DNA of 37,607 nt, from contig JAGXNR010000023.1 in NCBI GenBank assembly GCA_019894875.1, positions 1 through 37,607 on the forward strand, read 5' to 3'. Positions 2,170-28,711 of this stretch are shown here, piece by piece (position 1 is the stretch's first letter; the number at the start of each line of letters is the position of its first letter). The notes below the pieces were generated by a model. It searched no databases and was not told the DNA's origin. It saw only the letters and a list, made by a program, of their open reading frames with translations. Made by a program: the position numbers and the translations under genes. The stretch is from Promethearchaeota archaeon (GTDB taxonomy: Archaea > Asgardarchaeota > Lokiarchaeia > Sigynarchaeales > SOKP01).

Positions 2170-3165
2170 ATGACAGAACAAGCTTTTAGAGGGGAGATAC
2201 CTTATAAGCAATCTGAATCCCCAACGAAAAAGAAATTTTTTCGATTTTTAAAATTTTATTTAATTCCTGGGTGGCGAGAACCTGAATTCTCTTCTCAAGA
2301 ATATCACATAGAAAAAATAAAATCTAAAAGGAGAATGTTTCGACGCCTTATCAACCCTTTAACAATTTTAGGAATCATAATGCTTTTATTCATTTTGGTA
2401 TTAGCAGTATATTCTCCTTGGTTAACTCGCTATAGATTAGACGAACTAGTAATACCCTATATTCCTCCTGATACAAATCCTTTTGATATTCCATCAGCAG
2501 AGCATCCGTTAGGAACAACAAAGTATGGATATGATATTTTAGCAAGAATTATTTGGGGCGGTAGAACCACGATTTTAATGGCCTTAATCCCTGTAACCAT
2601 CGCTACTGTGGGAGGTCTTATCTTAGGAACGATATCAGCATATTTTGGTGGCACTGTTGATTATCTTATGATGCGTTTTGTAGATTTAATGTATTCATTT
2701 CCAAACTTGATTCTTGTCATCATAATTGTTCCTATATTGGGACAAGAGTTATTGACTAGTCTTGTAATTTACGGAATTCTTTTTATACCATATAATATCA
2801 GGTTTATGCGATCACTTGTTTTACAAGTAAAGCAACTAGAATATATTCAAGCAGCAAAAACAGGTGGTGCGAAAAAATTCAGAGTAATGTTTAAACATAT
2901 TATACCAAATGCAATTTCTCCTATGATAATAGCGTTTTTTGGAGGAGCAGCGGTTGCAGTATTAGGTCTAGCAGGTCTGGCTTTTATAGGATTAGGAGAC
3001 CCGTTGGTTGCTAGTTGGGGAACCGATATTAATTGGGCAAGAGCTACATTTAGCAATCCCAATGCTGCTTTTTGGCCTGGACTATTAATAGGAATAACAT
3101 CCATTGGATTTATACTCCTAGGAGACGGAGTGCGAGATGCATTAGATCCACGATTAAGTTTATAA
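2170..3165 (+). CDS. ABC transporter permease, DppC/OppC type
   Basis: Second permease of the peptide/nickel-type importer. The 331-residue protein has a longer cytoplasmic N-terminus than usual (about 60 charged residues before the first helix), then the DppC-typical external loop with HPLGTTKYGYDILARIIWGGRTT near residues 115-137. Five more helices follow, with the EAA loop (YIQAAKTGGAKKFRVMFKHIIP) around residue 225 and the terminal GDGVRDALDPRL motif that closes OppC/DppC proteins. It lies 24 nt after the DppB stop and is clearly co-transcribed. Confidence 0.9.
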   Translation: MTEQAFRGEIPYKQSESPTKKKFFRFLKFYLIPGWREPEFSSQEYHIEKIKSKRRMFRRLINPLTILGIIMLLFILVLAVYSPWLTRYRLDELVIPYIPPDTNPFDIPSAEHPLGTTKYGYDILARIIWGGRTTILMALIPVTIATVGGLILGTISAYFGGTVDYLMMRFVDLMYSFPNLILVIIIVPILGQELLTSLVIYGILFIPYNIRFMRSLVLQVKQLEYIQAAKTGGAKKFRVMFKHIIPNAISPMIIAFFGGAAVAVLGLAGLAFIGLGDPLVASWGTDINWARATFSNPNAAFWPGLLIGITSIGFILLGDGVRDALDPRLSL

Positions 3166-3228
3166 AAAAAGAGGAGATTAAACGTTTTAAATATAATATT
3201 TCAATCAGAGTATGGATTTAATTATGGA

Positions 3229-5118
3229 ATGGCTTTAATTGAATCAATTATTGCAGCATTAATATTATTTTTTATCTCAATTACTATAAATAAGAATATT
3301 CCTGAAGAGAAACAAATTTCAAGAGTAATTCATAAAAAGAGCTCAGCCGTAATTACCCTCATACTTTTCGGTATAACTTTTGCTATTCGTTCCCTCTTTG
3401 AAACTCTAGAGGCTATTTTTTACTTGTTTTCAATTATCAATAATGATGTTGTAATGTTTGCATTAATGACAACAATCTTTTATTTTTTGTATAAAGAATT
3501 AGTGCTTAAGCAAAAAAGATTTGGATCTAAAGGGGAGGAACTTTTTAGTTATCTATTTCTAAAAATATTTAGATTATTTATTATATTAAGTTGGATAATT
3601 TCCGCAATATTCGTCTCAATTCCTCTCCTACAAATTAGAATGAATAATCCTGATATTTTCAACCTCGGATTTTTATGGGCAATTTTAGCTGTTGGATTTG
3701 ATATTATCATCACAATTTTAATAAATAGTACTCTTCCAATTGAGAAACGTATTTCTAAAGAAATTCTTAAATACTCTATGTTTGCTGGTGGACTCTTCTC
3801 ATTCGGAATTTGGTCAATACAACTAGTAATCTTTGAATTGTATTTGAATAGACTATTTGGATTAATGCTATATCCACAAGATATTCGCATACTTTTTGGA
3901 GTAGTTAGTGGTATATATGCTTCGATTTTTTATGTATCTTTGAAAAAAAGATTTTTACCTACTGCTGAAGAAAAAAGCAAGTTAAAAGTTCAAAGAGCAC
4001 TTGAAATACTTCAAGAGCAAACTGTACAAGATTTTAATTTAGAAGGGAATCATGCGATCCTTGATGTGAAAGATCTCACTACTTATTTTCATACAGAAGA
4101 AGGTACTGTACGTGCTGTAGAAGGTGTATCTTTTAAAGTATATGAAGGAGAAGTTCTTGGCCTTGTGGGTGAAACTGGTTGTGGGAAATCTGTAACCGCA
4201 TTATCTATTCTTCGAGTAATTCGACCTCCAGGAAAAATCGAGAAAGGCAGTGTAATTTTTAGTGGGGAAAATCTATTAATAAAACCTGAATCAGAAATGC
4301 TAAAATATCGTGGCAAAGATATTACTATGATTTTTCAAGATCCACTAAATTCTCTTAATCCTGTTTTTAGAATAGGTAAACAAATCTCTGAAGTATTTTT
4401 ATTGCATATGGAAAATGAAATGCTTGCTGAAGCATCTAAATTTCCCGATAAAACTTTATATAGTATTGCTCGAGAATGGACTATAGAGCTTTTAAGAGAA
4501 TTGAATATACCCTTTCCTCAAGTAATAATTGATCGATACCCACATGAATTAAGTGGCGGTATGCGACAAAGAGTTCAGATTGCTATAGCTATTGCATGTA
4601 GACCTAAATTACTTATTGCTGATGAACCTACTACTGCTCTAGATGTCACAATACAGAACCAAATTCTCAAACAGATGAAAGATCTTCGTAAGAAATATAA
4701 TACAACTATATTATTTATTACTCATGATCTAGGAATTATCTCTAAAATGTGTAATCGTGTTGCTGTGATGTATTGTGGATCTATTGTTGAATATGGGGAT
4801 ATAAAAAAACTATTTACTAAACCTTATCACCCATACACTAGAGGGCTTATAGGTTCTGTTCCTGTTATGAGGGAAAGACAACAACAGCTTGAAGTTATAC
4901 CTGGAATGGTACCAAATTTAATTTATCCCCCTTCAGGATGTAGATTTCATCCTAGATGTCAATATTGTTTCGAGCCTTGCGATTCACAAGCTCCAATCCA
5001 AAATGAAGTTGAACCTGGATATTTTGTAGCATGTCATCTTTATGACCCAGAATATGAAAGTTTAGCTAAAATTTCTAGAAAAAAAATAGAAGAAAAGATT
5101 AGATTAAATAAAAATTAG
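3229..5118 (+). CDS. Oligopeptide ABC transporter ATPase (DppD type) with N-terminal membrane domain
   Basis: Cytoplasmic ATPase driving the importer, fused to an unusual membrane domain. Residues 1 to about 245 form roughly six hydrophobic helices joined by short charged loops; the ATPase starts near residue 275. Walker A is GETGCGKS near 313-320, the signature LSGGMRQR near 441, Walker B LLIADEPTTALD near 461, the H-loop in FITHDLG. The C-terminus carries the oligopeptide-ATPase extension with a Cys cluster (CRFHPRCQYCFEPC) near 569-582, a likely Fe-S site. The start is uncertain: a Shine-Dalgarno-like GAGGAG at 3171-3176 is over 50 nt before the ATG at 3229, the frame is open back to the dppC stop at 3163-3165, and no ATG, GTG or TTG lies between. 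A rare start nearer the GAGGAG is possible. Confidence 0.88.
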   Translation: MALIESIIAALILFFISITINKNIPEEKQISRVIHKKSSAVITLILFGITFAIRSLFETLEAIFYLFSIINNDVVMFALMTTIFYFLYKELVLKQKRFGSKGEELFSYLFLKIFRLFIILSWIISAIFVSIPLLQIRMNNPDIFNLGFLWAILAVGFDIIITILINSTLPIEKRISKEILKYSMFAGGLFSFGIWSIQLVIFELYLNRLFGLMLYPQDIRILFGVVSGIYASIFYVSLKKRFLPTAEEKSKLKVQRALEILQEQTVQDFNLEGNHAILDVKDLTTYFHTEEGTVRAVEGVSFKVYEGEVLGLVGETGCGKSVTALSILRVIRPPGKIEKGSVIFSGENLLIKPESEMLKYRGKDITMIFQDPLNSLNPVFRIGKQISEVFLLHMENEMLAEASKFPDKTLYSIAREWTIELLRELNIPFPQVIIDRYPHELSGGMRQRVQIAIAIACRPKLLIADEPTTALDVTIQNQILKQMKDLRKKYNTTILFITHDLGIISKMCNRVAVMYCGSIVEYGDIKKLFTKPYHPYTRGLIGSVPVMRERQQQLEVIPGMVPNLIYPPSGCRFHPRCQYCFEPCDSQAPIQNEVEPGYFVACHLYDPEYESLAKISRKKIEEKIRLNKN

Positions 5119-7019: not shown

Positions 7020-9458
7020 ATGGTAGTTCAAGATATTAAGATGACTCCTCTTCGAGGCATTCCCTCGGAGAGAGTTCGCAAGATTAGAGATAGAATGCTC
7101 TCTATGCCTAGAGAATTTGATATTGAACGAGCTCGGTGTTATACAAGAATATATAAACAAATGGAAGATTCTCCGCCCTGTATGAAGAACGTCAAGGCAT
7201 TGGAGGAATTCTTACAGTGTCTACCTATTAGGATTGAGGAAGATGAGCTTCTTGTAGGAGTAAAATCTAGCAAAGTAAGAGCTGATCCTTTTGAAATAGA
7301 ACGTGGAATGCGTGCTAGCATTTTTGGGTTTATCTTTAATGATTCAATAGATAAAAAAATAAGAGATGGGATTGCTAAAAGATTTATCTTTAGTCGTTAT
7401 CTTCCCTTACCAGAGGAAGAAATGGATGAGTTGAAAAATGAAATCATGCCCTTCTGGAAAGATAGAACTGTAGCAGCTCGAAAGCGAGGATATTGGCAAA
7501 AAGCAGGTTTAATTGAAACAATGGCTGCATTAAGTCCTAGGGGTGCCTCTCGCAGCGGTACTGATTTATTTTCAGTTGCTAGCGGTCAAGGACATGTCAT
7601 TCCAGGATATAGACGAGTTCTTAAAATGGGATTTAGAGGAATCGAAGCGATGGCGCAAGAAGGCCTTGCGAAACTCAAGGAAACAGACGAAAAATACGAC
7701 CAACGCAAGGATTTTTATGAATCAGTAGTGGTAGCAGCAAAAGCAGTCTGCGATTATTCTAATCGTTATGCAGATCTTGCAATGGAAATGGCAGAAAATG
7801 CTTCAGAAACAAGAAAAGCTGAACTTTTAGATATTACTGAACGAACAAGACGAGTGCCAGCACTTCCCCCTAGAACATTCATAGAAGCACTTCAATCAAT
7901 TTGGATGACCAATGTTGTTATGGAAATGAGTTATGGTGAAGGAAATATATTTTCTCAAGGACGGGTTGATCAATATCTTTATCCATATTATGTTGCTGAT
8001 TTAGCCGAAGATCGTATAACATATGATGAAGCTTTAGAACTCATTGAAGAATATTTAGTTAAACTTGCTTCTGTTGTTATCGCAGGACAGAATAATGTAA
8101 CTATCGGTGGACTGGATAAAGATGGGAATGATGCTACAAACGATGTGTCATACATGTTTCTCGAGGCTGTTGCAAATGTGAAAAGCTTATTGAATACAAT
8201 ATCGATACGGATTTCTTCCAAAACACCCCGTGATTTTTTGAACAGGACTATTGAAGCTTTCAAGTATACGGCCGGAATGGGTATTCATAATGATGAAGTT
8301 CTGGTCCCACAGCTTCATAATACAGGATATTCATTAGAGGATGCTAGAGATTATTCACTTGTAGGATGTGTAGAACCGCATGGTACTGGTAATGATTTCT
8401 CTTATACTGCAGGGAACATTGTTCAGATTTCAATCCTTCTTAACATGGCATTGAATGAAGGACGTACTATTCTTTCAGGAAATAAGACTGTTGGAGCGAA
8501 GACACCCCCAGCTAAAACTTTTAAGTCCTTTGAAGATGTTAAGAAAGCTTATGTAGACCAACTTAAATTTGCCATAGATCTCACGGTAAAAAAGGCTGAG
8601 TTAAAGGATAAAGTATTTGCTGAATATCTTCCTTCCCCATTGCTATCGTCTACTATAGAAGGATGTCTCGAAAGTGGAATGGACGCAACTCGAAACGGAG
8701 CTAAATATAATAATAACCCAATGGGGTCACAAGGACTTGGTGGTGTCGCAAACTCCTTAGCAGCAATTCGCTGGGCAGTATTTGAAGAGAAATTAGTGAC
8801 GATGGAAGAATTAGTTACCCACATGAATAATAATTTCAAAGGAGCAGACGAACTTCGAGAAAAATTACGAAATAAAGCTCCTAAATATGGAAATGGTGAT
8901 GAGCGGACAGATGAACTAGCAAAATGGGTTGCATCTAACCTATGCGATATTACAAGAAAATATAAAGCGAGAGGCGGTGATGGTATATATCACAATTGCC
9001 TTGTATCTGCTGCTGGATCTCAGATTACGGAGGGAAGAGCATTAGGAGCAACTGCGGATGGAAGATTAGCTCGTGAAGCTGTTGCAAACGGCATTTCTCC
9101 TGCAAATGGTACAGAAAAGAATGGACTTACCATGGCACTCCGATCAGTAGCTTATGCAACTGGTGAACCGCATTTAACTAATGGGGCAACCATGAATATA
9201 AGAATTAATCCTAGCTTAATACAGACCGATGAAGGAGTCGATCAATTAGCTTCTATAGTAGAGGCTTATTTAGAGTTAGGAGGACGAGAGCTTCAGATAA
9301 ATCCATTAAGTACAGAAACACTAAGAGATGCACAAGCTCATCCAGAAAAATATCCCGACCTATCAGTTAAGGTTACAGGCTACTCCGCTCGATTTATAGA
9401 CATCGCAAGATCACTTCAAGAGGATATTATCGCTCGCACAGTATTTAATGAAATATAA
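7020..9458 (+). CDS. Glycyl radical enzyme (pyruvate formate-lyase/dehydratase superfamily)
   Basis: Oxygen-sensitive radical enzyme of 812 residues, the normal size for the dehydratase/lyase branch. A thiyl radical on Cys450 would attack the substrate; the site reads SLVGCVEPHGTGND, a single Cys followed by V-E-P as in diol dehydratases, choline TMA-lyase and related enzymes, not the Cys-Cys pair of true pyruvate formate-lyase. The glycyl radical site is VTGYSARF with Gly787, 26 residues from the C-terminus, followed by QEDIIART, a canonical end. Its activase is encoded convergently at 9629-10573. Substrate is unknown: decarboxylation, dehydration and C-N or C-S lysis remain open. The ATG at 7020 lies behind a TATA box at leaderless spacing; the ATG at 7041 is an alternative. 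Confidence 0.92.
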   Translation: MVVQDIKMTPLRGIPSERVRKIRDRMLSMPREFDIERARCYTRIYKQMEDSPPCMKNVKALEEFLQCLPIRIEEDELLVGVKSSKVRADPFEIERGMRASIFGFIFNDSIDKKIRDGIAKRFIFSRYLPLPEEEMDELKNEIMPFWKDRTVAARKRGYWQKAGLIETMAALSPRGASRSGTDLFSVASGQGHVIPGYRRVLKMGFRGIEAMAQEGLAKLKETDEKYDQRKDFYESVVVAAKAVCDYSNRYADLAMEMAENASETRKAELLDITERTRRVPALPPRTFIEALQSIWMTNVVMEMSYGEGNIFSQGRVDQYLYPYYVADLAEDRITYDEALELIEEYLVKLASVVIAGQNNVTIGGLDKDGNDATNDVSYMFLEAVANVKSLLNTISIRISSKTPRDFLNRTIEAFKYTAGMGIHNDEVLVPQLHNTGYSLEDARDYSLVGCVEPHGTGNDFSYTAGNIVQISILLNMALNEGRTILSGNKTVGAKTPPAKTFKSFEDVKKAYVDQLKFAIDLTVKKAELKDKVFAEYLPSPLLSSTIEGCLESGMDATRNGAKYNNNPMGSQGLGGVANSLAAIRWAVFEEKLVTMEELVTHMNNNFKGADELREKLRNKAPKYGNGDERTDELAKWVASNLCDITRKYKARGGDGIYHNCLVSAAGSQITEGRALGATADGRLAREAVANGISPANGTEKNGLTMALRSVAYATGEPHLTNGATMNIRINPSLIQTDEGVDQLASIVEAYLELGGRELQINPLSTETLRDAQAHPEKYPDLSVKVTGYSARFIDIARSLQEDIIARTVFNEI

Positions 9459-18106: not shown

Positions 18107-19945
18107 ATGGGAACCTCAAATGATAATAAAGTAATTAGAGCACCAATCGTCTGTATTTTGGGACATATTGATCACGGAATGTGATTTACAGAAAGTAAAT
18201 CACACGTAAAGACCACTATACTAGACTATATAAGAGGCACTGTCGTTCAACAAAGAGAAGCGGCAGGGATAACTCAACATATAGGTGCTTCTTATTTTCC
18301 AACCCAAGATATAAAAGAATTTTTAAGAAAGTCAAAACAAGAATTCGCAGAAAAAGAAATTAGCCTCCCAGGCATACTAGTAATCGATACACCAGGTCAC
18401 GCTGCCTTTTTAAATCTCAGGCGTCGTGGGGGTGCGGTTGCAGACATTGCGATCTTAGTAATCGATGTGACTGCTGGTACTATGCCAATAACTTGGGAAT
18501 CTGTGAGAATTTTAAGAGATCGAAAAACACCTTTTGTAATAGCAGCAAATAAAATTGATAGGATCTCTGGTTGGAAGTCAACTAAAGATGCGGATTTTTT
18601 AGATTCATACAACAGTCAAAAATCCCATGTTAAAGAGTTTTTAGACGAAAAAATATTTCAAATTATAGGAAATTTTTTAGAAGAAGGATTTAAGGGAATA
18701 GAGAGATATGATAAAATTAAAGATTTTACCAAGCAAGTAGCTATTGTTCCTACAAGTGGTAAAACTGGTGAAGGAATATCCACCTTACTATTGGTACTAA
18801 TGGGATTAGTCCAACAATATCTAACGAAAAATCTGAAATTTTCTGAGGGTCCTGCCAAAGGTGTAGTACTGGAAGTTAAAAAGGAGAAAGGACAAGGTAA
18901 AACTATGGACGTCTTAATTTATGATGGTGTTATTCATAAGGGAGATGATTTTATAGTTGGTGGTTTAGAAAAACCGATTAAATCAAAAGTAAGAGCGTTA
19001 CTAATCCCAAAGCCATTAGACGAGATAAGAGATCCTAGACAAAAATTTGATTCTGTTGAATTTGTCGCAGCAGCAGCAGGTATTAAAATTCTTTCTCCAC
19101 ATATAGAAGATGTTGTAGCAGGATCCCCTTTTAGGGGAATTGGAGATCCATCTGAAGAATCTGATGTTTATAAAGAAGTTGAATCTGAAGTAGAGAGCAT
19201 TCGTATTAAAACTGACAAAGCTGGTGTTGTCTTAAAAGCAGATACTTTAGGATCTCTTGAAGCTTTAGAAAACCATTTCTCTCAAAATGGTGTGAAAATC
19301 AGTATTGCTGATGTAGGACCAATAAAAAAAGAAGATGTAATCAATGCTAATATTGTAAAAGAATTTGACCTTTACTCTGCAACTGTGCTTGGATTTAATG
19401 TACCAATTCTTCCCGAAGCAAAAGAACAAGCATTTACTGATCACATCCGAATTTTTACGAATAATGTTATATATCGATTATTAGAAGATTATATTGAATA
19501 TGCTGATACCAGAAAAGCAGAAGATACTGCCAAGGGATTAAGTGAATTAACATTACCTGCAAAACTAAAAATGATTCCAGACTATATCTTTAGAAATTCA
19601 AATCCTGCTGTGTTTGGTGTAAAAGTTGAAGCAGGAACTTTATTCCCAAAAGTACCTTTAATCACTGAAAAAGGTAAAAGGGTCAAAAGAATCCATCAGA
19701 TCCAAGATAAAGGACAAACCGTTGAAAAAGCTCTAAAGGATTCGGAAGTTGCAGTTTCTATCCGTGGAATCGAAATAGGTAAAGATATTGGTAATGATGA
19801 AACACTTTATGTAAATGTCCCAGAATCTCATGTAAGGCAATTGATGGGAAAATTCCTCGATGAATTAACCACAGATCAAATAGAAGTACTGAGAGAATTC
19901 ATTAAATTAAAAAGGACTTATGAACACCCATGGTGGGGGATTTGA
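18107..19945 (+). CDS. infB: Translation initiation factor aIF5B, interrupted by a 30-nt BHB intron
   Basis: Ribosomal subunit-joining GTPase, universal in archaea. The gene is read as join(18107..18179, 18210..19945), 602 residues after splicing, the usual archaeal length. Exon 1 encodes the first 24 residues and ends at GHIDHG; directly read, the next codons are ATG TGA (stop). Removing 30 nt gives GHIDHGKTTILDYIRG, a perfect P-loop (residues 19-27). Downstream motifs are intact: switch I AGITQHIGA, G3 DTPGHAAF, G4 NKID at 138-141, and domains II-IV to the C-terminus. The intron splits the codon of the catalytic-site Lys25 (phase 1). The ATG at 18107 lies behind a GAGTGA-like sequence. No long gene would be called here without splicing: the unspliced frame lacks the P-loop. 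Confidence 0.93.
18180..18209 (+). other. 30-nt bulge-helix-bulge intron in aIF5B
   Basis: The insertion carries an in-frame TGA at the P-loop. Inner stem: TGTGATTTAC (18180-18189) pairs perfectly with GTAAATCACA (18195-18204), with a five-base AGAAA loop. Exon-intron helix: ACG 18174-18176 with CGT 18205-18207, with a G-A mismatch in the fourth position (18177/18204). Bulges are AAT 18178-18180 and AAA 18208-18210. The outer exon-exon helix, 18165-18173 against 18211-18219, has seven pairs and two mismatches. Cutting after the second base of each bulge, the known archaeal endonuclease rule, restores HGKTT. The A-rich ends leave the exact junction shiftable by one or two bases with the same protein outcome. 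The BHB is slightly relaxed compared with the other two. Confidence 0.85.
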
Positions 19946-20013
19946 TCCATAAGTTTTTTTAAAAAGCATGAAGTAATTTTATTATACACCCATTTTTCTT
20001 TAAAATCAATTCG

Positions 20014-21471
20014 ATGCCCTCTACTGATGATATTTTAACTGAAGTTTTAAAATCTATTATTCCCACTACTCAAGATGTAACTATAATTAACACCATAACA
20101 GAAGAACTACAAAAAATATTGCATAAAAAAGCAGAAGAACTAGAAATTGAATATACAAAAATAGAACCTCAAGGTTCCACGGGGATAAAGCAAACACAAT
20201 TAAACAATGATTTTGATATCGATCTTTTTATAGGATTAGATTATAAACACTATGAAAAAAAATATGAGGGTTTGAGTAAAAACAAATTAAAAAAATTATC
20301 CAAAAAAGACTTTTTAAACTTATGTAATAACTGGATTATCCCAAGTTTAACCTTGAAAGAATATCAAAATCCTCGACTCTTATATGCTGAGCACCCTTAT
20401 GTAACCGTGGATTACCGTTCAAATAAAGCAGAAATAAAAATTGACATTGTTTTATATTTTGATTTAGAATTAAAACGGATTCAAGAACAAGGACCTATAA
20501 CTGCTGTAGATAGATCCCCCTGGCATGGACGCTTCATACGAGATAATTTATCACACACCCAAAAAAATGACGTTCGTCTTTTAAAACAATTTTTTAAATC
20601 TAATCATAGCTACGGTGATAAAAGCTCTTTAGGTAAAGTAGGTTTTATCGGGTACAGCGCAGAATTACTCATTTATTATTTTGACAATATTATAAATCTT
20701 TTTGATAATTTTAATAAACTAAAAACAACCCCCTTGGATTACTATAACAGAAATGAAAAAGATTTAAAAAAAATTGTCCATTTTCAAAACGATTACCTAA
20801 TTATTGTAGATCCAATTGATAAAAATAGAAATGTTGCCTCAGCGATTTCAGAAAGAGCTTATAAATACTGTAACTTTAGAATTACCAATTTTTTAGAAAA
20901 TCCTAGTAAAAGTTTTTTTGAAATAAAACCAATTCCTGAATTTGAATTACAGAATTCAACAGAACTATATCTCTCAAATATTTTCATTATTGAATTGCTG
21001 GATCTTGAAAAAAAAATTCATTATACAATAAATAGGGATAAATTACATTCAATTGGGGAACATATTAAAACTTCTGGAGAAAAAGAGTTTACACATGTAG
21101 AAAAATTTGGGACAATAATTTATGAAGTTTATTTTGAAGATAATATCAATGAATATAACGTAGCTTTATATTGTGAAAAACCTGATATTTCAAAGACTTA
21201 TATCCGCAAAGGACCTTCAGTTAAAGATGCTTTACATGCTAAAAATTTTAAAAAAAAAAATCCAAATTCTTTTGAAAAAAACGGATATTTTTGGGTTGAA
21301 GCTAAAAGGGATTTTCATAATTTTCTTTTATTTTTAAAGCAAATAATCAATACAAAGGTTCCCGATAATTTTAAAGTTATTAATGTTGAAAATTCTTTAA
21401 ATACAATAACGTCCTCGGCGAAGAAAGCGTTAACAATTCTTACTCGTATGGTGTTACCCTTTTATTTATAG
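20014..21471 (+). CDS. cca: CCA tRNA nucleotidyltransferase, archaeal class I
   Basis: Adds or repairs the 3'-CCA of tRNAs. The nucleotidyltransferase motif is plain: PQGSTGIKQTQLNNDFDIDLFI (residues 52-73) with the GS motif and the DxD pair of catalytic carboxylates, the third carboxylate in KIDIVLYF near 146. The archaeal CCA-specific stretch KNDVRLLKQFFKSNHSYG...GFIGYSAELLIYYF near 188-227 matches this family well. The 485-residue length is normal. It starts 68 nt after aIF5B on the same strand, with no Shine-Dalgarno sequence. Confidence 0.93.
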   Translation: MPSTDDILTEVLKSIIPTTQDVTIINTITEELQKILHKKAEELEIEYTKIEPQGSTGIKQTQLNNDFDIDLFIGLDYKHYEKKYEGLSKNKLKKLSKKDFLNLCNNWIIPSLTLKEYQNPRLLYAEHPYVTVDYRSNKAEIKIDIVLYFDLELKRIQEQGPITAVDRSPWHGRFIRDNLSHTQKNDVRLLKQFFKSNHSYGDKSSLGKVGFIGYSAELLIYYFDNIINLFDNFNKLKTTPLDYYNRNEKDLKKIVHFQNDYLIIVDPIDKNRNVASAISERAYKYCNFRITNFLENPSKSFFEIKPIPEFELQNSTELYLSNIFIIELLDLEKKIHYTINRDKLHSIGEHIKTSGEKEFTHVEKFGTIIYEVYFEDNINEYNVALYCEKPDISKTYIRKGPSVKDALHAKNFKKKNPNSFEKNGYFWVEAKRDFHNFLLFLKQIINTKVPDNFKVINVENSLNTITSSAKKALTILTRMVLPFYL

Positions 21472-21474
21472 AAT

Positions 21475-22764
21475 TCAACGAGCTTCCGGAATTAAGAGGA
21501 TAACTTTCGTTCCTTTTTTATAATCTCCTTTAATTCGATCCTCTGCCCAGATCATTCCGTTAAAACTGTGAACTACTTCTCTAACAAGTAGTAAACCTAA
21601 ACCAATTCTCTTATAACTTGTAGGTTTTTCATATATTTTGTAAAAGATGCTTTTTTTCATCTTTTCTGGCATCCCTATACCGTTATCTCCGATTTCTATC
21701 TTAAGATAATTGTTACTGTCTTCTTGGTGCTTAGAAATTTTGATTGAGACCTCTACTTCCGGATTATCGTTGTATCGAATTGCATTATTTAATAATATTC
21801 TAAAAACGTCAGATAAAAATTCATTCCCATATACTTTTGGGGGATTGTCCATCGAATCGACATTGAAACTTATTCTTTTTTTAAGAAATCTTGTCTTTGC
21901 ATACTCGATAGCCTCTTCAATAATACCATTTACTTCCATCAAGGTGTTTTTAATTTCCCCTGTTTCTAGTTCTGAGAGTTTTCTTACATTTACTCCGAGT
22001 TCTGCACCACGATTCACTTGGGTTTTTGCAAGTTTTACTATTTCAGTTATTTTCTTCTCATTTTGTTGTTTATCCGCTTCTTGAGCAATAACTTCTAATG
22101 AAAATTCTAAATTTTGGAGAATGTTGTTTATATCATGAACAAAAAGATCTTTATAAAATTCCGCTCTATTATACGCTAATCGATATCTACTTTCTGATTC
22201 TACAATTCTAACCTCAATTACAGCAACAATCCCAGTAATAAGCATCACTGTAGTCATAATTATTCTCGAGAATTCTAGAAAATCCTCTGCCCCTGGACTC
22301 CCCAGATCTCTAAAAACACTCGTGGTTATTTGTACCAATCCTGTAATCAAAACAAAACACATAAATGCATGGGTTGGTGTTCTTTTTCTTAAATATAATT
22401 TTATTATTAAAAATATTGTTATGAGTAGTAAAAAAGTTATGAAAATTTGTAATCCTAGGGATGTAATTTGCTGTTGGAAAAGTAAGAAAATCATAGGAAT
22501 GGTTTGGGTTATACCACCTTTTGAAAATGTTTGATAATATTCGTAAGACACAGCGGTTATAAAAATTGTAACAGTTGTAGCTGAAAATAAAATAGAGATT
22601 ATTTCAAAATTATCATATAAAGATTGAGAAAATAACCGGAATACTTCAGAAAAAGAAGCTGAAATATATGCAAAAAGCCACGGAATTAAATCTCTCCTTT
22701 TAAAGCATACCCATGCAAATATAAAAGTAGCAAGGATAGTTACAATAGTATTAGATAAATCCAT
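21475..22764 (-). CDS. Membrane sensor histidine kinase
   Basis: About 429 residues. Six or seven hydrophobic helices fill residues 1-185, followed by a helical dimerisation domain with the phosphoacceptor in FVHDINNILQ (His210). A HATPase domain follows with N-box RILLNNAIRYND, G1 box EIGDNGIGMP, and G2 box RIGLGLLLVREVV. There is no recognisable extracellular or PAS domain, so the membrane part itself is likely the sensor. No response regulator is adjacent. The frame also extends 14 codons upstream to a TTG at 22806, but the ATG at 22764 places the first helix normally and is preferred. It is convergent with the CCA gene, three bases away. Confidence 0.85.
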   Translation of the reverse strand: MDLSNTIVTILATFIFAWVCFKRRDLIPWLFAYISASFSEVFRLFSQSLYDNFEIISILFSATTVTIFITAVSYEYYQTFSKGGITQTIPMIFLLFQQQITSLGLQIFITFLLLITIFLIIKLYLRKRTPTHAFMCFVLITGLVQITTSVFRDLGSPGAEDFLEFSRIIMTTVMLITGIVAVIEVRIVESESRYRLAYNRAEFYKDLFVHDINNILQNLEFSLEVIAQEADKQQNEKKITEIVKLAKTQVNRGAELGVNVRKLSELETGEIKNTLMEVNGIIEEAIEYAKTRFLKKRISFNVDSMDNPPKVYGNEFLSDVFRILLNNAIRYNDNPEVEVSIKISKHQEDSNNYLKIEIGDNGIGMPEKMKKSIFYKIYEKPTSYKRIGLGLLLVREVVHSFNGMIWAEDRIKGDYKKGTKVILLIPEAR

Positions 22765-22897
22765 ATTAAAATAATTATTCAACTCAGAAACCTTATCTTT
22801 TTTCAATTTGAATAGTTAAAATAATAATGGGGGGAATTGTTTTAAATTTACACCTAAAAAAAATTAGAGATCAGATTAAAAATAATAATTTATAGCC

Positions 22898-22925
22898 TAA
22901 ATTCATAAAATTTTTATGATTTCAC
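22898..22925. repeat. 28-bp direct repeat, left copy, with internal palindrome
   Basis: Matches 24921-24948 at 27 of 28 positions in the same orientation. The core is TCATAAAA-T-TTTTATGA, a perfect 8-bp inverted repeat. It lies about 110 nt before the LAGLIDADG gene. Confidence 0.8.
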
Positions 22926-23036
22926 TGAAAAATTTTACCAAAAAATCTCTACAAATCTAAATCGCTATATGTAAAAGATAAAAAAAGAAAAAATGAGAAT
23001 GATCTTATTGAGAATTTAGTTAAAAAACTTGAAAAA

Positions 23037-24887
23037 ATGACTCATATTCAAATGAAGATATTTAGAAATCTTAGAGCCTTTCAATCACTTTATAATCAAT
23101 ATATTGCTAGTGATATGAATCGAATCTTGAAAGAAAGGGAGAAATTCATAAATTACCTCTCTCAAAAGTTAATCAAGCTTAAAAGAATAGAAAAGGACCA
23201 AAAGATCGTGCGAAAAAATTGGAGGGTGAATTTAAATGAGAATTTATACAAAATGCAAACATTAACACTAAAGGGAAAATCTCTAATAACTAAAATTATC
23301 CAGAAGGATAAACTTGATAAAGAAGATCTTAAGCAAATTATATCTATATTAAGTAAACTTTCCACAGAAAATTTAATTTCTCTATTAGGAAATGATTTTA
23401 AAAATCACACTAAAAATTATGTTAAATGGGGATGGGATTTCTATCGAAATGTTAAGATGGACATCTTGCGAGATTTTTTCCTTAAAGATAGATTTCAATT
23501 GATTCTCTTCAAAGAATTCGTTTTGAATAAAAAACTTGATCCCCCTCCTGATCTTCCCGAGCTTGTTAATAAGTGGTTTACTGATTCTCTTAAAGCAATA
23601 ATGCTAAATTATGATTTTTTAAGAAATCACGCAAGTTTCAGAAGGATGAGTTCCTTCTTTGGTTTAACTAAATATTATCTTTACGATATTAGGTATAAAA
23701 AAACAATAATTTCACATGAATATTTAGATCAAATGAAAAATACTCTTTCTAAAAAGGTAAAAAGTTTGAAAAGTACTAATAATATAGATACATTGGAGGC
23801 TCAAGATATAATATTTGGGATCATTGAGATCTATAGACAGAAATATGACCCTAAAATAACAGCTAGTACTCAGATTGATAAAAACCTAAAACAGAATTAT
23901 TTTTCTCAGATCACATCAATTGAGCAAGCCTTTTTCTTAGGACTTATGTTTGCTGATGGATGGGTGACTATCCAGCATAGTAAGAATAGAGAATCTTATA
24001 AAATGGGTCTTGCACTAAAGGACGAGGATAGAGAGACTGTCGAACAATTTGCAATTGCTATTGGATTATCTAAAAATAGTGTAAGAACGAGGCATGTTAT
24101 TGATTCTAAGACCGGGAGAAGATATAAGATGGCTTATTTATATATTGGTGTAGGAAGCACGTTAGTTCAACGTACAATGGGGAACGATTTAATCAAACTT
24201 GGGATGGTATATAAGATTAATAAGAGAACAGGTAGATGGTATAAAGTTCCTAAATTACCAATCTTTTATAAAAAAAACGGGGATATAAACAGGAACTTAA
24301 TGTTAGCCTTCTTATTAGGTTATTATAATGGGGATGGTACACTTAAAAGTAAGAAATACCCAATTATTTATAGTAGTAATAGGGAATTTCTTGAAGCGAT
24401 AAACAAAGTATTCTCTCTGAGTGTAGTAAGAAAAACTGAAAGAGAAATTATTGATTTTGAGAGAAATACGATAAATCAAAAAGTTCTTTATTCGCTTTAC
24501 ATAAGTCAGGCTGTTTTCAAAGAGATGATGAGTCTCCAATTAAACTCAATGAAAAGGAAATCAATAGACGCAGAGAATATTATACTGACTAAACCAATTA
24601 TGACTAAAAATCGAATTTGGTTAATGGATATTCTGCCGAAAGACCTTCTTGAGAGAATATTTAATACCCATTCTCCCTCAACTATTGCAAATTTAATAGG
24701 AATCGATCATAACACTATGATTAAGTTTATAGACTTTGTATATAAAATCCCACGTAAGGATAAGGCATATTATATCAAATTAGCTTCTGAAAGAAATCGA
24801 CAAACCGAATCTAGTGAGTTGAATCGTCTTTATAATCATTTTTCAAATGTTTTAATTAATATTGGGAATGAAAATCCCTTTAAATGA
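23037..24887 (+). CDS. LAGLIDADG homing endonuclease-like protein
   Basis: 616 residues. Two LAGLIDADG helices are visible: AFFLGLMFADGWV around 297-309 and LAFLLGYYNGDGTL around 421-434, each ending in the acidic residue that binds catalytic metal. This makes a monomeric, two-motif endonuclease domain of about 200 residues. A helix-turn-helix-like stretch (STIANLIGIDHNTMIKFI) follows near 560. Residues 1-290 are a Lys-rich helical region I do not recognise. There is no intein splicing block and no flanking exon homology, so it is a free-standing gene. It sits inside the 28-bp repeat pair, upstream of intron-bearing EF-2. The frame stays open without a standard start for about 100 nt upstream of the ATG. 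Confidence 0.8.
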   Translation: MTHIQMKIFRNLRAFQSLYNQYIASDMNRILKEREKFINYLSQKLIKLKRIEKDQKIVRKNWRVNLNENLYKMQTLTLKGKSLITKIIQKDKLDKEDLKQIISILSKLSTENLISLLGNDFKNHTKNYVKWGWDFYRNVKMDILRDFFLKDRFQLILFKEFVLNKKLDPPPDLPELVNKWFTDSLKAIMLNYDFLRNHASFRRMSSFFGLTKYYLYDIRYKKTIISHEYLDQMKNTLSKKVKSLKSTNNIDTLEAQDIIFGIIEIYRQKYDPKITASTQIDKNLKQNYFSQITSIEQAFFLGLMFADGWVTIQHSKNRESYKMGLALKDEDRETVEQFAIAIGLSKNSVRTRHVIDSKTGRRYKMAYLYIGVGSTLVQRTMGNDLIKLGMVYKINKRTGRWYKVPKLPIFYKKNGDINRNLMLAFLLGYYNGDGTLKSKKYPIIYSSNREFLEAINKVFSLSVVRKTEREIIDFERNTINQKVLYSLYISQAVFKEMMSLQLNSMKRKSIDAENIILTKPIMTKNRIWLMDILPKDLLERIFNTHSPSTIANLIGIDHNTMIKFIDFVYKIPRKDKAYYIKLASERNRQTESSELNRLYNHFSNVLINIGNENPFK

Positions 24888-24920
24888 AGGTTTTTTACAT
24901 CTTTCTGAGCTTTAAAAAAA

Positions 24921-24948
24921 TAAATTCATAAAACTTTTATGATTTCAC
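24921..24948. repeat. 28-bp direct repeat, right copy, with internal palindrome
   Basis: Same sequence as 22898-22925 apart from the central base of the palindrome (C instead of T): TCATAAAA-C-TTTTATGA. It lies 33 nt after the endonuclease stop and about 65 nt before the EF-2 start, so it also sits in the EF-2 promoter region. Confidence 0.8.
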
Positions 24949-25000
24949 GTATTCTATTCCTCAATTAGAATATGAAAATATAAATAAAAAGAATTTAACA

Positions 25001-25006
25001 AGGTGA
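25001..25006 (+). promoter_or_regulatory. Shine-Dalgarno sequence defining an AUA start of EF-2
   Basis: AGGTGA lies seven bases before the in-frame ATA at 25014-25016. Spacing is ideal, and the same AGGTGA precedes the intron-bearing GTPase gene. Confidence 0.55.
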
Positions 25007-25013
25007 AAGACTT

Positions 25014-27296
25014 ATAGTCAAAGTAAAAAATCCTCAAGAAATTATTGATCTTGTAACTTCTGGCTCATACGAGAAGAAGAGAATCTTTTCGATAACTGCC
25101 CACATAGATCACGGGAAAACAACTGCCACAGATTACCTACTAAGGAGGGCAGGGCTTATGCGGGCCGAAGATGCGGGTCAGCTCCAAATGACAGATTCAG
25201 ATTTAGATTAAGATCTACTTGATCTACTGAAAGATGAGGAGCAAGCACGCGGGATTACAATTTTTACAAGTGTAGTTTTACTAGCATTCAATGATTCAAG
25301 AAAACCAGATGATACTGAACCTTATATTATTCAATTAAATGATACCCCTGGTCACATTAGTTTTACCGGAGAAGTATCTCGAGCTCTTAGAGGTAGTGAT
25401 GGTGCTATAATTTTAGTTGATGCCCTTGAAGGTGTTATGACCCAAACAGAGACTAATATTCGTTTATCTGTTGGTGAGGAATATTGTAAACCAGTTTTAT
25501 TCATTAACAAAGTTGACCGATTGATAAGTGAATTAAAGTTAAGTCCTCAAGATACGTTTGCTAGAATAGATAAAATCACACGCGAAGTTAATGAACTTAT
25601 AAGAAAAATCCGACCCGAAGGTTCGGGTTGGACTATTGATTTTGCTAAAAACTCTGTTGCTGTTGGCTCAGCTAAACATGGTTGGGGTTTCACATATGAA
25701 ATTTTAGTTGAAAAGGGGATGAAACCTCAAGATGTTTTCACAAAATATAGTGAAGGTGATATTCAGTGGTTAAGAGATAATTTACCATTAGACGAACCAA
25801 TGTTAAGGATGATAGTTGACCATTTACCTAATCCTGTTGAAGCCTCTAAATATAGAATTCCTCATATATGGGGAGGTGACCTAAGTTCAGAACTTGGACA
25901 ATCTCTCCTTAAGAGTGACCCAAATGGTCCACTTTATGGGATGATTACAAAAATCTTTCTCGATCCTAAGAGGAACTATCAAGCTACACTTATCGGTCGT
26001 GTTTTTTCAGGCACTTTTGACCAAACTGACTCAATATACTTAGTTAATAGTGAATCAAGCAATCGAGTAAAGAGGTTAGGTGTCATGGAGATAACTGATC
26101 TTTTAGATATTCCTCGGATCCCTGCGGGAAACCTGTTTGCATTGTTTGGTTTTGTATGCCCAGCGGGTGAAACATTTATGTTGACTAATAAAGTTCCTAA
26201 AGATAAAGAAGAAAGAAAAAAGATACATCCCTTCGAGAAAATTCAATATGCATGTGAAGCTGTTGTATCAAGAAGTATTAAACCAAAAGATCCACATGAA
26301 ATTGATAAATTAGATGAAGTAGTCGGAAAATGGCTCAAAGCGAACCCTGAAGCAGAATATCGAAGAGATGAAGAATCTGGTGAATTTGTACTCTCTGGAA
26401 TTGACCCTCTCCAAATAGAAATCTTAACAAAAAGAATTAATATTCAAGTACCAATTGATATTGGGGAACCAATTATCATTAACAGAGAAAAAATAACAGA
26501 AAGGAGTCCTGATTATCATACAAAATCAGCAAATACACACAATCGTATTTTGCTATACATTGAACCTTTAGATGAAACAACAGAAAAATTAATTGAAACC
26601 GGTAAAGTAAATGATTTACAAAATGATAAAGATAGAGCTCAAATACTAAGGGAAGAAGCGGGATGGGATGCAAAAGAGGCCAGACGAATTGTTGATGTAT
26701 ATCAAGGGAGCCTCCTTGTAAATGGTACTTCAGGATTACAGAGATTTGATCGCGTAAAATCCTACTTAAGTGCTGCTTTTAGAGATTGGCTTGGAAATTG
26801 TATAATCGCGAAAGAACCTGCAGCTGGCATTAAAGTAATTTTTACGGATTTAGTCATCCACGAGGACCCTCGCCATACGCAATATGGTCAGATCGCCGGA
26901 ATGATTTTCTCTGCTATGTCCTTAGCAATGCTGGAGGCAAGTCCTCATCTCTTTGAACCCGTCCAGAAGATTGATATTAAAACACCTCAAGGAACGGAAG
27001 GAGGAGTTACTGCAATTATTTCTAAGCGTCGAGGGAGAGTCACTAACGTTATTCCCGAAGGTGAATACGTGAGGATCCAAGGTCAAATTCCTACTGCAGA
27101 ACAAATAGGTATCGCGGACGATATCCGAGGCTCAACTCAGGGAAGGGCTTTTTTTGGCTACGAGTTCAAGGGATTCGAAAAAGTACCTGCTTCACTAGAA
27201 GACGATCTCATCATGGAAATTCGTAAGCGAAAAGGGATGCCTTTAGAATTACCTAATAAAAAGAGTTGGGAACGATTTATTTATAAACGTACCTAA
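25014..27296 (+). CDS. fusA: Translation elongation factor 2 (EF-2 or EF-2 paralog), AUA start, 30-nt BHB intron
   Basis: Ribosomal translocase GTPase, about 750 residues after splicing: join(25014..25202, 25233..27296). Read from ATA, exon 1 gives (M)VKVKNPQEIIDL..., the normal EF-2 N-terminus, with P-loop AHIDHGKT at 29-36. No ATG, GTG or TTG exists in frame before the P-loop. An in-frame TAA at 25209-25211 interrupts the gene before switch I; removing 30 nt yields TDSDDEEQARGITI, which aligns gap-free with archaeal and eukaryotic EF-2. G3 (NDTPGH), G4 (NKVD) and domains II-V follow. In the domain IV tip, His611 of the diphthamide position is kept, but the usual HRG is HTQ (DPRHTQYGQI). This resembles Asgard EF-2 paralogs with degenerate loops. 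It is the last gene before the convergent GTPase. Confidence 0.93.
25203..25232 (+). other. 30-nt bulge-helix-bulge intron in EF-2
   Basis: Contains an in-frame TAA. Inner stem of nine pairs: TAGATTAAG (25204-25212) with CTTGATCTA (25218-25226), one being a T-G wobble, and a five-base loop. The central helix is a perfect TCAG (25197-25200, exon) with CTGA (25227-25230, intron). The three-base bulges are ATT 25201-25203 and AAG 25231-25233. The outer helix is short (25195-25196 with 25234-25235). Cutting after the second base of each bulge joins GAT to GAT (phase 0) and gives the family-expected 11-residue spacing. Geometry is the canonical archaeal BHB with the central helix between exon 1 and the 3' end of the intron. 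Confidence 0.9.
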
Positions 27297-27319
27297 TTTT
27301 TTTTAACTCTCATTTTTTT
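27297..27319 (+). terminator. T-run terminator after EF-2
   Basis: Runs of eight T (27297-27304) and seven T (27313-27319) directly after the EF-2 stop, between convergent genes. Confidence 0.45.
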
Positions 27320-27377
27320 ATATCAGAATAATATACATAAATTACTATGAACTAAAATTTAAAGAAATTAATGATCA

Positions 27378-27985
27378 TTAAGAGAAACTGCTTATCTTAG
27401 CGATCATATATAACTTTTTAACAAGAGCTTTAAACGCATCAGTTACCTTATGTCCTGTTAAAGCACTTGTTTTATAATAACCTATAAACCTATTCTCCTT
27501 TGCAAAACTTTCTACATTACTATCTGATGTTGGGATATTTGGATTCGCACTTAATTCTTCCTCATCAACCAAATCTACTTTATTTCCAAATAATACGATT
27601 GGTATATTTCCACAATGAGTTTTAAGATCTTTAAGCCATCTAGGAACATGTTCATAGGTCTGAGGTTGTTCAGGAGCATGAGAAAACACGATTATTGCAC
27701 CGCTACTTCCTGTGTAGAATCTTTGGCGTAGTGCTTGAAATGAATCTTGACCAGCAATATCCCAAATAAACAATTCAACTTTCTCACCATCAATGACCTC
27801 TTCATACTTGGAAAACTGTGTCCCAAGCGTTGAGATATATTCTGTTCGAAAAGACCCTTGGGTGTATTTTTTAATTAATGATGTCTTTCCAACGGCGCCG
27901 TCTCCAATAAATCCACTCTAAAGAAAAAATTCAATAGATCTGTGATTTTGAAGCCGTAACCTTGTTCTGCACTCACTTTTTCCAT
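27378..27985 (-). CDS. Rab/Ras-like small GTPase with 29-nt BHB intron
   Basis: Small GTPase of 192 residues after splicing: complement(join(27378..27910, 27940..27985)). Exon 1 encodes MEKVSAEQGYGFKIT plus one base; unspliced reading then loses the frame. Removing 29 nt gives KITVIGDGAVGKTSLI, an ideal P-loop (residues 18-25). G2 Thr lies in YISTLGTQF, G3 is WDIAGQ, G4 FGNKVD, G5 TSALTG: all intact and Rab-like. There is no C-terminal Cys for prenylation, as usual in Asgard GTPases. AGGTGA directly abuts the ATG, so a GTG three codons in could be the real start. The nearest relative is the intronless GTPase at 28154-28711, about 60 percent identical by eye over the P-loop to G3 region. Without splicing only a truncated frame starting at G3 would be called. 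Confidence 0.93.
27911..27939 (-). other. 29-nt bulge-helix-bulge intron in small GTPase gene
   Basis: The length is not a multiple of three, so it frameshifts the gene unless removed. On the coding (minus) strand: central helix TCAC (27945-27942, exon) with GTGG (27916-27913, intron), including one G-T wobble; inner helix TCTA (27938-27935) with TAGA (27920-27917); three-base bulges AGA (27941-27939) and ATT (27912-27910). The outer exon-exon helix pairs CTTCAAAA with TATTGGAG with one A-A mismatch. Cutting after the second base of each bulge splits one Val codon (phase 1) and gives KITVIGDGAVGKT. This is the clearest BHB of the three. Confidence 0.92.
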
Positions 27986-28153: not shown

Positions 28154-28711
28154 TCATATTGTAGCTCGTTGATATAACTTCAATACTAATGTTTGAAATG
28201 CTTCTTTTACACTTTGACCTGTTAACGCACTAGTTTTATAATATTCAATGATCTTATGATCTTGAGCAAATTCATTGATATGGACGTCTGAGGTAGCATA
28301 ATTTGGAGTCGTTAATGCATTTTGATCAACAAGATCCGCTTTATTCCCAAATAATATAATAGGAATGTTCCCACATGTATCTTTAACATCTGAAAGCCAT
28401 TTAATAACATGGTCGTAGGTTTCCATTTCTTCAGGAGAAAGAGAAAAAACAATAATAGCGCCACTGCTTCCTGTATAAAACCTATCGCGCAGAGTACTAA
28501 AACTTTCTTGACCCGCTAAATCCCATAGTAATAACTCTACTTTTTCCCCTGCAACTTCTTCTTCAAATTTCGAAAAATGCATACCTAGAGTTGAGATATA
28601 ATCTTTTTCAAATGAATTTGTCGTATATCTTTTAATTAGCGAAGTTTTTCCAACAGCAGCATCACCACAAATCACAATCTTAAATTTGAAAGCATCACTC
28701 AAATGATTCAA
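28154..28711 (-). CDS. Rab/Ras-like small GTPase (intronless paralog)
   Basis: 185-residue GTPase with all G motifs: P-loop GDAAVGKT (residues 17-24), YISTLGMHF with the switch I Thr, G3 WDLAGQ, G4 FGNKADL, G5 TSALTG. It is a tandem paralog of the GTPase at 27378-27985; long identical blocks (FYTGSSGAIIVFS, CGNIPI-LFGNK, YYKTSALTG) show a recent duplication. Here the segment FKIVICGDAAVGKT is continuous, so this copy lacks the intron its neighbour carries at the same place. No prenylation motif. Cellular role unknown; Asgard genomes carry large sets of such GTPases. Confidence 0.92.
   Translation of the reverse strand: MNHLSDAFKFKIVICGDAAVGKTSLIKRYTTNSFEKDYISTLGMHFSKFEEEVAGEKVELLLWDLAGQESFSTLRDRFYTGSSGAIIVFSLSPEEMETYDHVIKWLSDVKDTCGNIPIILFGNKADLVDQNALTTPNYATSDVHINEFAQDHKIIEYYKTSALTGQSVKEAFQTLVLKLYQRATI

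Follow-up and report, generated by a model that had tools for sequence, protein, structure and literature searches.

The window analysed here, positions 1 to 37,607 of contig JAGXNR010000023.1 from a lokiarchaeial Promethearchaeota archaeon, carries three short inserts in protein-coding genes: 30 nucleotides (nt) in the gene for aIF5B, 30 nt in that for EF2 and 29 nt in one for a Rab-like GTPase. These inserts are real, and we hold it very probable that they are introns of the bulge-helix-bulge (BHB) type, predicted to be spliced by EndA and RtcB and likely spread by homing through free-standing LAGLIDADG endonuclease genes. The inserts, their BHB registers, their patchiness, the adjacency of endonuclease genes, an exon stub, an empty site and a conversion-like tract are read directly from sequence; splicing and homing are what we infer from them. 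The inserts and their host genes lie as follows:

18180..18209, forward strand: aIF5B micro-intron, 30 nt, at GHIDHG/KTT (spliced alignment with relatives)
18107..19945, forward strand: aIF5B gene, interrupted (Pfam IF-2, GTP_EFTU and GTP_EFTU_D4 on the intact 3' part)
25203..25232, forward strand: EF2 site A micro-intron, 30 nt, at TDSD/DEEQ
25014..27296, forward strand: EF2 gene, interrupted (Pfam EF-G domains on the 3' part; alignment with intronless orthologs)
27911..27939, reverse strand: Rab-like GTPase micro-intron, 29 nt, at FKITV/IGDG
27378..27983, reverse strand: Rab-like small GTPase gene, interrupted (the intact 3' part matches Pfam Ras)

As the signature of a BHB intron we took a 4-bp central helix (‘H’) between two 3-nt bulges at the exon–intron junctions, with the cut between bases 2 and 3 of each bulge, where it falls in archaeal pre-mRNA introns (PMC2738675). 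The aIF5B insert is in frame and contains a TGA; it forms H from ACGG:ACGT (3/4 pairs), with bulges AA^T and AA^A and an inner 9-bp hairpin, GTGATTTAC-AGAAA-GTAAATCAC, the registers 18178-18207 and 18179-18208 being equivalent. The spliced protein is 602 amino acids (aa) long and aligns with its relatives, which we label L for Lokiarchaeia loci and G for genomes (41 loci retrieved with aIF5B, the nearest, L001, at 91%). Thirty-nine of the 40 relatives that cover the position have an empty site; the fortieth, L006, carries a 30-nt insert at the identical base, with an unrelated core and a complete H (CCGT, 4/4). At EF2 site A the insert is again in frame, contains a TAA, and fits in one register only—the same as the BHB register—with H TCAG:CTGA (4/4), bulges AT^T and AA^G, and an inner 9-bp helix. 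Taking out the Rab-like insert (H TCAC:GTGG, 4/4; bulges AG^A and AT^T) restores FKITV-IGDGAVGKTS; a homologous intron, also of 29 nt, occupies this site in L001, and none is present in the adjoining paralog of the window (28154-28711). The proposal of a preliminary description of this DNA, that three genes of the window hold 29-30 nt BHB introns, is therefore borne out.

Further cases, which that description had suggested looking for, were found well beyond the window. We compared the 41 loci and the window in an all-against-all tblastn search (0.72 Mb), added 100 arbitrary stretches from five genomes (1.59 Mb, of which 1.56 Mb unmasked), taken from contig starts in three drafts and at even spacing in two single-contig genomes, and then further loci, to a total of 2.61 Mb, also reading the flanks of endonuclease genes. 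Detection by this route depends on homologs, and the sampling is centred on the aIF5B–EF2 region and on endonuclease neighbours. The outcome is 22 distinct sites, 21 in protein genes and one in a probable tRNA gene, all 29-32 nt long and mostly 30, a count that leaves out L118, L162 and other weak single-query rows; insertion at near-constant length is thus recurrent, as had been supposed. With one representative per site (n = 21) three are 29 nt, 15 are 30 nt and three are 31 nt; a second UvrB host, L010, has 32 nt, and the 22nd site, which G008 and G013 share (L079, L093), lies in a gene for acyl-CoA dehydrogenase and holds 30 nt (H 3/4, 9-bp inner helix). The earlier remark that about 30 nt is very short for a BHB intron does not hold, since the cbf5 introns of Crenarchaeota measure 16 to 44 bp (PMC2738675), a range wider than that of our sites.

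The hosts include EF2 (four sites), aIF5B, aIF2-gamma, Rab and an MglA-like GTPase with four introns (L305), together with UvrB, an AMP-binding enzyme, an MBL-fold protein, a DUF2229 protein, PFK (two), a zinc-ribbon-like protein, GH38 alpha-mannosidase, ArgG (argininosuccinate synthase) and acyl-CoA dehydrogenase. The names aIF2-gamma, MglA-like and acyl-CoA dehydrogenase are our own reading; Pfam gives GTP_EFTU for the first and, below its cut-off, Ras for a piece of the second, calls the AMP-binding and MBL domains, and matches the zinc ribbon below its cut-off.

Three candidates were set aside. Two 31-nt gaps (L124 at 2428 and L136 at 11015, G001) are gene junctions with an in-frame TGA in CWK*GYG, a suspected selenocysteine codon, and were excluded from the count; an in-frame stop near an endonuclease gene in L268 has an unconvincing motif. 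A search ab initio for BHB motifs with joined frames returned 900 stable-hairpin matches as compared with 858 at a decoy offset and, being this undiscriminating, was abandoned, so that only comparative calls are used here.

Helix H is complete in 18 of the 21 scored sites, is 3/4 paired in two (MBL and the fourth MglA-like site) and 1/4 paired in one (PFK2). Here aIF5B and UvrB are scored by their better host; if window aIF5B and L010 UvrB (3/4 each) are taken in their place, the count of complete helices becomes 16/21. When one side was slid by 1-4 bases as a control, a full H appeared in 0-1 of 21, the chance at an arbitrary place being 0.022 per register, and positions of the inner helix are paired in 82% of cases as against 38-47% in the control. 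The register at several sites was picked partly by the motif itself; the cleanest are EF2 A, B, C and D, aIF5B, UvrB (L002) and GH38, because there homologs fix the boundaries. For EF2-A, seven distinct sequences leave 93.4% of cells paired, with two pairs altered on both sides.

Since the inserts fold into the signal for tRNA splicing, they are likely removed from the mRNA, cut by EndA and sealed by RtcB as we predict from the motif and from the presence of both genes in all 11 relative genomes tested (two EndA matches in 9/11). EndAs of the two-subunit type are described elsewhere as having broad specificity (PMC6379350). That the inserts are instead damage—pseudogenes or assembly errors—is an idea that the mostly draft, metagenomic state of the assemblies invites, and we give it almost no credence: the same site and length recur in independent assemblies, including the single 2.27-Mb contig of G011, the frame resumes after each insert, and the intron stems are kept. 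A different way of coping with the inserts would be for the ribosome to bypass them during translation. Their near-fixed size and hairpin recall bacteriophage T4 gene 60, where a 50-nt insert is skipped and the MobA gene adjoins (PMC5009743, PMC2988022), and UvrB and MBL would have the matched codons in one phase. Such codons occur at only 2/21 sites, however, even with any phase allowed, whereas the paired exon–intron helix H and the bulges at the junction are what EndA requires; moreover, a 30-nt insert with the same motif sits in what is probably a gene for tRNA-Leu, an RNA that is not translated. Bypass therefore seems to us highly improbable. This tRNA gene (L150, about 8292-8487, G011) carries its canonical BHB insert in the T loop and likely holds further introns; neither ARAGORN nor Rfam called a tRNA at L150, and we identify it by what we take to be its acceptor and T stems, together with the homolog in L170, which is intronless and lacks the insert.

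The distribution of the introns is patchy. Across 227 genomes of the phylum, EF2 genes with inner stops occur, among the matches listed, only in Lokiarchaeia-like EF2s of at least 73% identity, in at least 13 of 53 such genomes (G006 being additional); full-length EF2 rows of lower identity among those matches have no inner stops. The site-A intron is scattered over 10 of the 49 rows of the EF2 tree, an insertion at one and the same site across lineages with empty alleles in sisters, as in the pairs L249 (with) and L259 (without), and L256 (with) and L012 (without). In the second pair, the intron of L256 (G015) is identical over 30/30 nt to those of L009 and L248, and the next four codons downstream match L009 at 11/12 bases and the sister L012 at 8/12, whilst the following 30 codons match L012 at 90/90 bases and L009 at 69/90. 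To us this looks like a short conversion tract of about four codons.

Presence in one sister and absence in the other favours selfish elements over a conserved switch, and bears on the suggestion that these are regulatory introns of GTPases whose splicing gates the capacity for translation. All three hosts in the window are GTPases, two of them translation factors, and 11 of the 21 protein sites lie in GTPases, a figure that comes from sampling centred on such genes; the remaining 10, including both sites from the arbitrary stretches, lie outside them, which ends the supposed restriction to GTPases, and the introns come and go between the sister loci named above. We regard a regulatory role of this kind as very improbable. 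Any enrichment for GTPases is not estimable, because the sampling was centred as described. The related claim, that the inserts sit at nucleotide-binding motifs, holds at many sites, yet just this placement would be expected of homing elements in ultraconserved codons, for which inteins and group I introns offer the comparison (PMC2814812).

Two further observations concern the positions of the sites: aIF5B, EF2 and aIF2-gamma all carry sites at DHG/KT, and EF2 site C (L250, L251) lies 6 nt upstream of site A, with the 3' part TCTACTG in common with the window intron, as if slid.

A candidate for moving the EF2 intron stands upstream of EF2, between that gene and a histidine kinase gene, inside the interval 18107..27985 of the preliminary description (where it went unmentioned):

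23037..24887, forward strand: free-standing two-motif LAGLIDADG endonuclease, 616 aa (Pfam LAGLIDADG_3, phrog_4645 endonuclease, AlphaFold model)

The distance from the end of this gene to the EF2 intron is 316 nt. A 19-row alignment gives the consensus GFLxADG and LLGxYDGDG, two motifs each with an acidic residue, and the AlphaFold model (pLDDT 79, pTM 0.47) retrieves LAGLIDADG proteins at Foldseek ranks 1-30 (TM by target 0.27-0.55), its matches including enzymes of solved structure, such that the window protein has both the two motifs and a matching fold; the viral collection searched holds only distant LAGLIDADG relatives (22-35%). We think it the likely mobiliser of the EF2 intron, judging by its sequence and position. 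The gene lies outside the 29-32 nt introns rather than inside one, as the gene of a mobile intron otherwise might.

Among the 41 loci, only L017 and L039 (truncated) have homologs of this endonuclease, in each case upstream of EF2, and both loci carry the site-A intron; with at least 2 kb upstream covered, an endonuclease precedes EF2 in 3/8 site-A-positive loci compared with 0/36 others (Fisher 0.004). The association extends beyond EF2. When ten neighbourhoods (89.5 kb) were picked by an endonuclease match alone (L254 being dropped as a near copy of L253 from the same genome), five of them (L253, L255, L269, L271, L272) were found by the automatic method to contain introns, whereas the 1.56 Mb of unmasked arbitrary stretches yielded two protein introns, in L145 and L186 (P 9e-6). 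Over 25 places where the match covers the LAGLIDADG core and the flanks are covered—many more listed family matches fall outside this count—an intron is found in a nearby gene at 11:

Intron nearby (11): the window, G017, G039, G030, G021, G015 (C4), G025 (C65), G033, G019, G020, G137
No intron (14): G145, G012, G010, G016, G028, G014, G015 (C69), G029, G038, G147, G003 (C4, C54), G025 (C54), G042

(G003 C4 and G025 C54 were judged by the automatic method only.) At all 11 positive places the endonuclease lies 5' of the host gene; the nearest gap is 97-858 nt at ten of them (279 nt for L305) and 1636 nt at the eleventh. The N-terminal region of the endonuclease (window 23037-23546; L017 5207-6100) forms a domain of its own, which recurs in many large Lokiarchaeia proteins; among 30 loci with this part only, L079 and L093 were flagged by the automatic method, both at acyl-CoA dehydrogenase, and there the endonuclease-like gene is on the 3' side. 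Nearness to the intron, and not the side, therefore seems to be the rule; the N-terminal-domain proteins of these two loci may represent a second group of endonucleases.

A possible footprint of transfer is seen at GH38. In G025 (L271) a native exon-1 stub (3152-3202), VKANNIIIVPETHWDRE, stops exactly at the intron site; an endonuclease gene follows on the opposite strand (3211-4494), and then a second copy of exon 1 (from 4639), the intron (4693-4722) and the remainder of GH38. The corresponding locus of G004 (L164; GH38 from 7387) has neither endonuclease nor intron and is thus an empty site, and G033 (L272) has both with no visible stub. We looked for such a stub in nine other places and found none.

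Taken together, these data suggest a route of spread. The endonuclease would cut an allele that lacks the intron, at the insertion site or close to it, within an ultraconserved stretch of codons, and repair off the intron-bearing copy would transfer the intron; given a long enough tract, the endonuclease gene and part of the host gene would travel too. The inserted intron would destroy the target, and splicing would render the insertion nearly neutral. Later the endonuclease gene would decay and be lost whilst the intron persists, which is our proposed reason why many introns now stand alone. With somewhat less assurance than for the reading of the introns themselves, we favour a two-part mobile element: a 30-nt BHB micro-intron in an essential gene and a separate, adjoining LAGLIDADG gene that homes into the intronless allele and is able to carry a replacement 5' exon, the protein genes of Lokiarchaeia being colonised now and the codons for GTP- and ATP-binding serving as landing sites common to paralogs.

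Several points weigh against this account. An endonuclease flanks only one of the three window introns, and 14 of the 25 endonuclease places show no intron in the flanks covered, many of which extend only about 1.5 kb. Five loci (L001, L009, L011, L014, L249) carry the EF2-A intron with no endonuclease in the at least 2 kb covered upstream, the EF2-B and -C introns of L006, L040 and L250 are likewise without one, and neither protein intron of the arbitrary stretches has one within its stretch. The motif itself is uneven, H being only 1/4 paired at PFK2 in its register and 3/4 at MBL, the fourth MglA-like site, acyl-CoA dehydrogenase, window aIF5B and L010 UvrB; covariation at EF2-A is modest, its score being reached by 15/500 shuffles and the number of doubly changed pairs by 62/500. 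The L256/L012 tract could reflect gain of the intron in L256 or loss in L012.

The same solitary introns, with no endonuclease of the window family near them, speak for a rival in which the BHB introns are real, the endonucleases are unrelated neighbours, and the introns arise otherwise, by end-joining filling or reverse splicing, and linger. Set against it are the five in ten endonuclease-chosen neighbourhoods as opposed to two introns in 1.56 Mb, gaps that are mostly below 1 kb, and the L271 stub, which ends exactly at the intron site beside an endonuclease. We judge this rival unlikely, if the most serious of those considered, and retain homing by the free-standing endonucleases as our preferred explanation.

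Around the endonuclease and EF2 genes the window holds some further features:

22898..22925, forward strand: left copy of a 28-bp direct repeat flanking the endonuclease gene (27/28 identical to the right copy)
24921..24948, forward strand: right copy of this 28-bp direct repeat, upstream of EF2 (27/28 identical to the left copy)

A single close, same-strand copy of this repeat lies upstream of EF2 in L001, L003, L041 and L004. The region also has a conserved inverted repeat, TTCATAAAA[T/C]TTTTATGA (window 24925 and 22902; also in relatives), with weaker opposite-strand copies in L001, L003, L004 and L014; a regulator site is possible. The histidine kinase gene upstream of EF2 is broken in L001 (9607-10704). 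The apparent start codon of EF2 in the window (25014-25016) and in L001 is ATA, where relatives use ATG (L039 also has I there), and ATA at 25014 is probably the true start.

The expectation that standard gene callers would truncate such hosts is supported by public EF2 entries of 673, 619, 619, 671 and 702 aa, assigned to L001, L014, L039, G146 and L040, the uninterrupted protein having 750 aa. Among the 120 EF2s of the public list, a length of 702 aa occurs 22 times, 619 aa 10 times and 671-673 aa eight times, in place of 750 aa. Those entries of 702 aa that we fetched begin at MRxEDAGQLQ, which may hint at an intron ahead of this Met in further lineages.

Archaeal rRNA introns have homing endonucleases of their own, I-DmoI being an example. 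Those with internal endonuclease genes resemble the present introns in joining BHB splicing to mobility by homing (PMC2738675, PMC6125680). In Lokiarchaeia, by contrast, the endonuclease gene is outside the intron, beside the host, and the hosts are protein genes. A 2011 paper on a mobile cassette is reportedly concerned with homing in T-even phages. The T-even systems, namely T4 gene 60 with its 50-nt insert and MobA, and collaborative or trans homing, are the nearest in logic, with a tiny non-coding insert or an endonuclease-less intron in a conserved gene and a free-standing endonuclease near by; they employ HNH enzymes and ribosome bypass or group I introns, whereas here we see LAGLIDADG proteins and the BHB form on an archaeal chromosome (PMC2988022, PMC5009743). 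The cbf5 pre-mRNA introns of Crenarchaeota are likewise short, have no internal reading frame and are cut 2/3 at a junction BHB; they differ in occupying one gene, in the ancestor of two orders, with loss in some lineages (PMC2738675), the Lokiarchaeia introns being spread over many genes, patchy and linked to endonuclease genes. Asgard tRNA introns are similar in occupying unusual positions, in tRNA (PMC11291895), whereas our sites are mostly in protein genes. A literature search of titles and the opening of abstracts, with subscription journals and preprints mostly outside its reach, returned nothing on protein-gene introns in Asgard archaea.

Lokiarchaea are among the closest archaeal kin of eukaryotes. 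Some public protein sets contain truncated forms of EF2 and other markers of Asgard phylogeny. If our interpretation is right, endonuclease-free intron mobility becomes a question testable with one enzyme and one target, and mobile protein-gene introns near the ancestor of eukaryotes would constitute a living model of intron invasion, one that uses protein splicing enzymes and not ribozymes.

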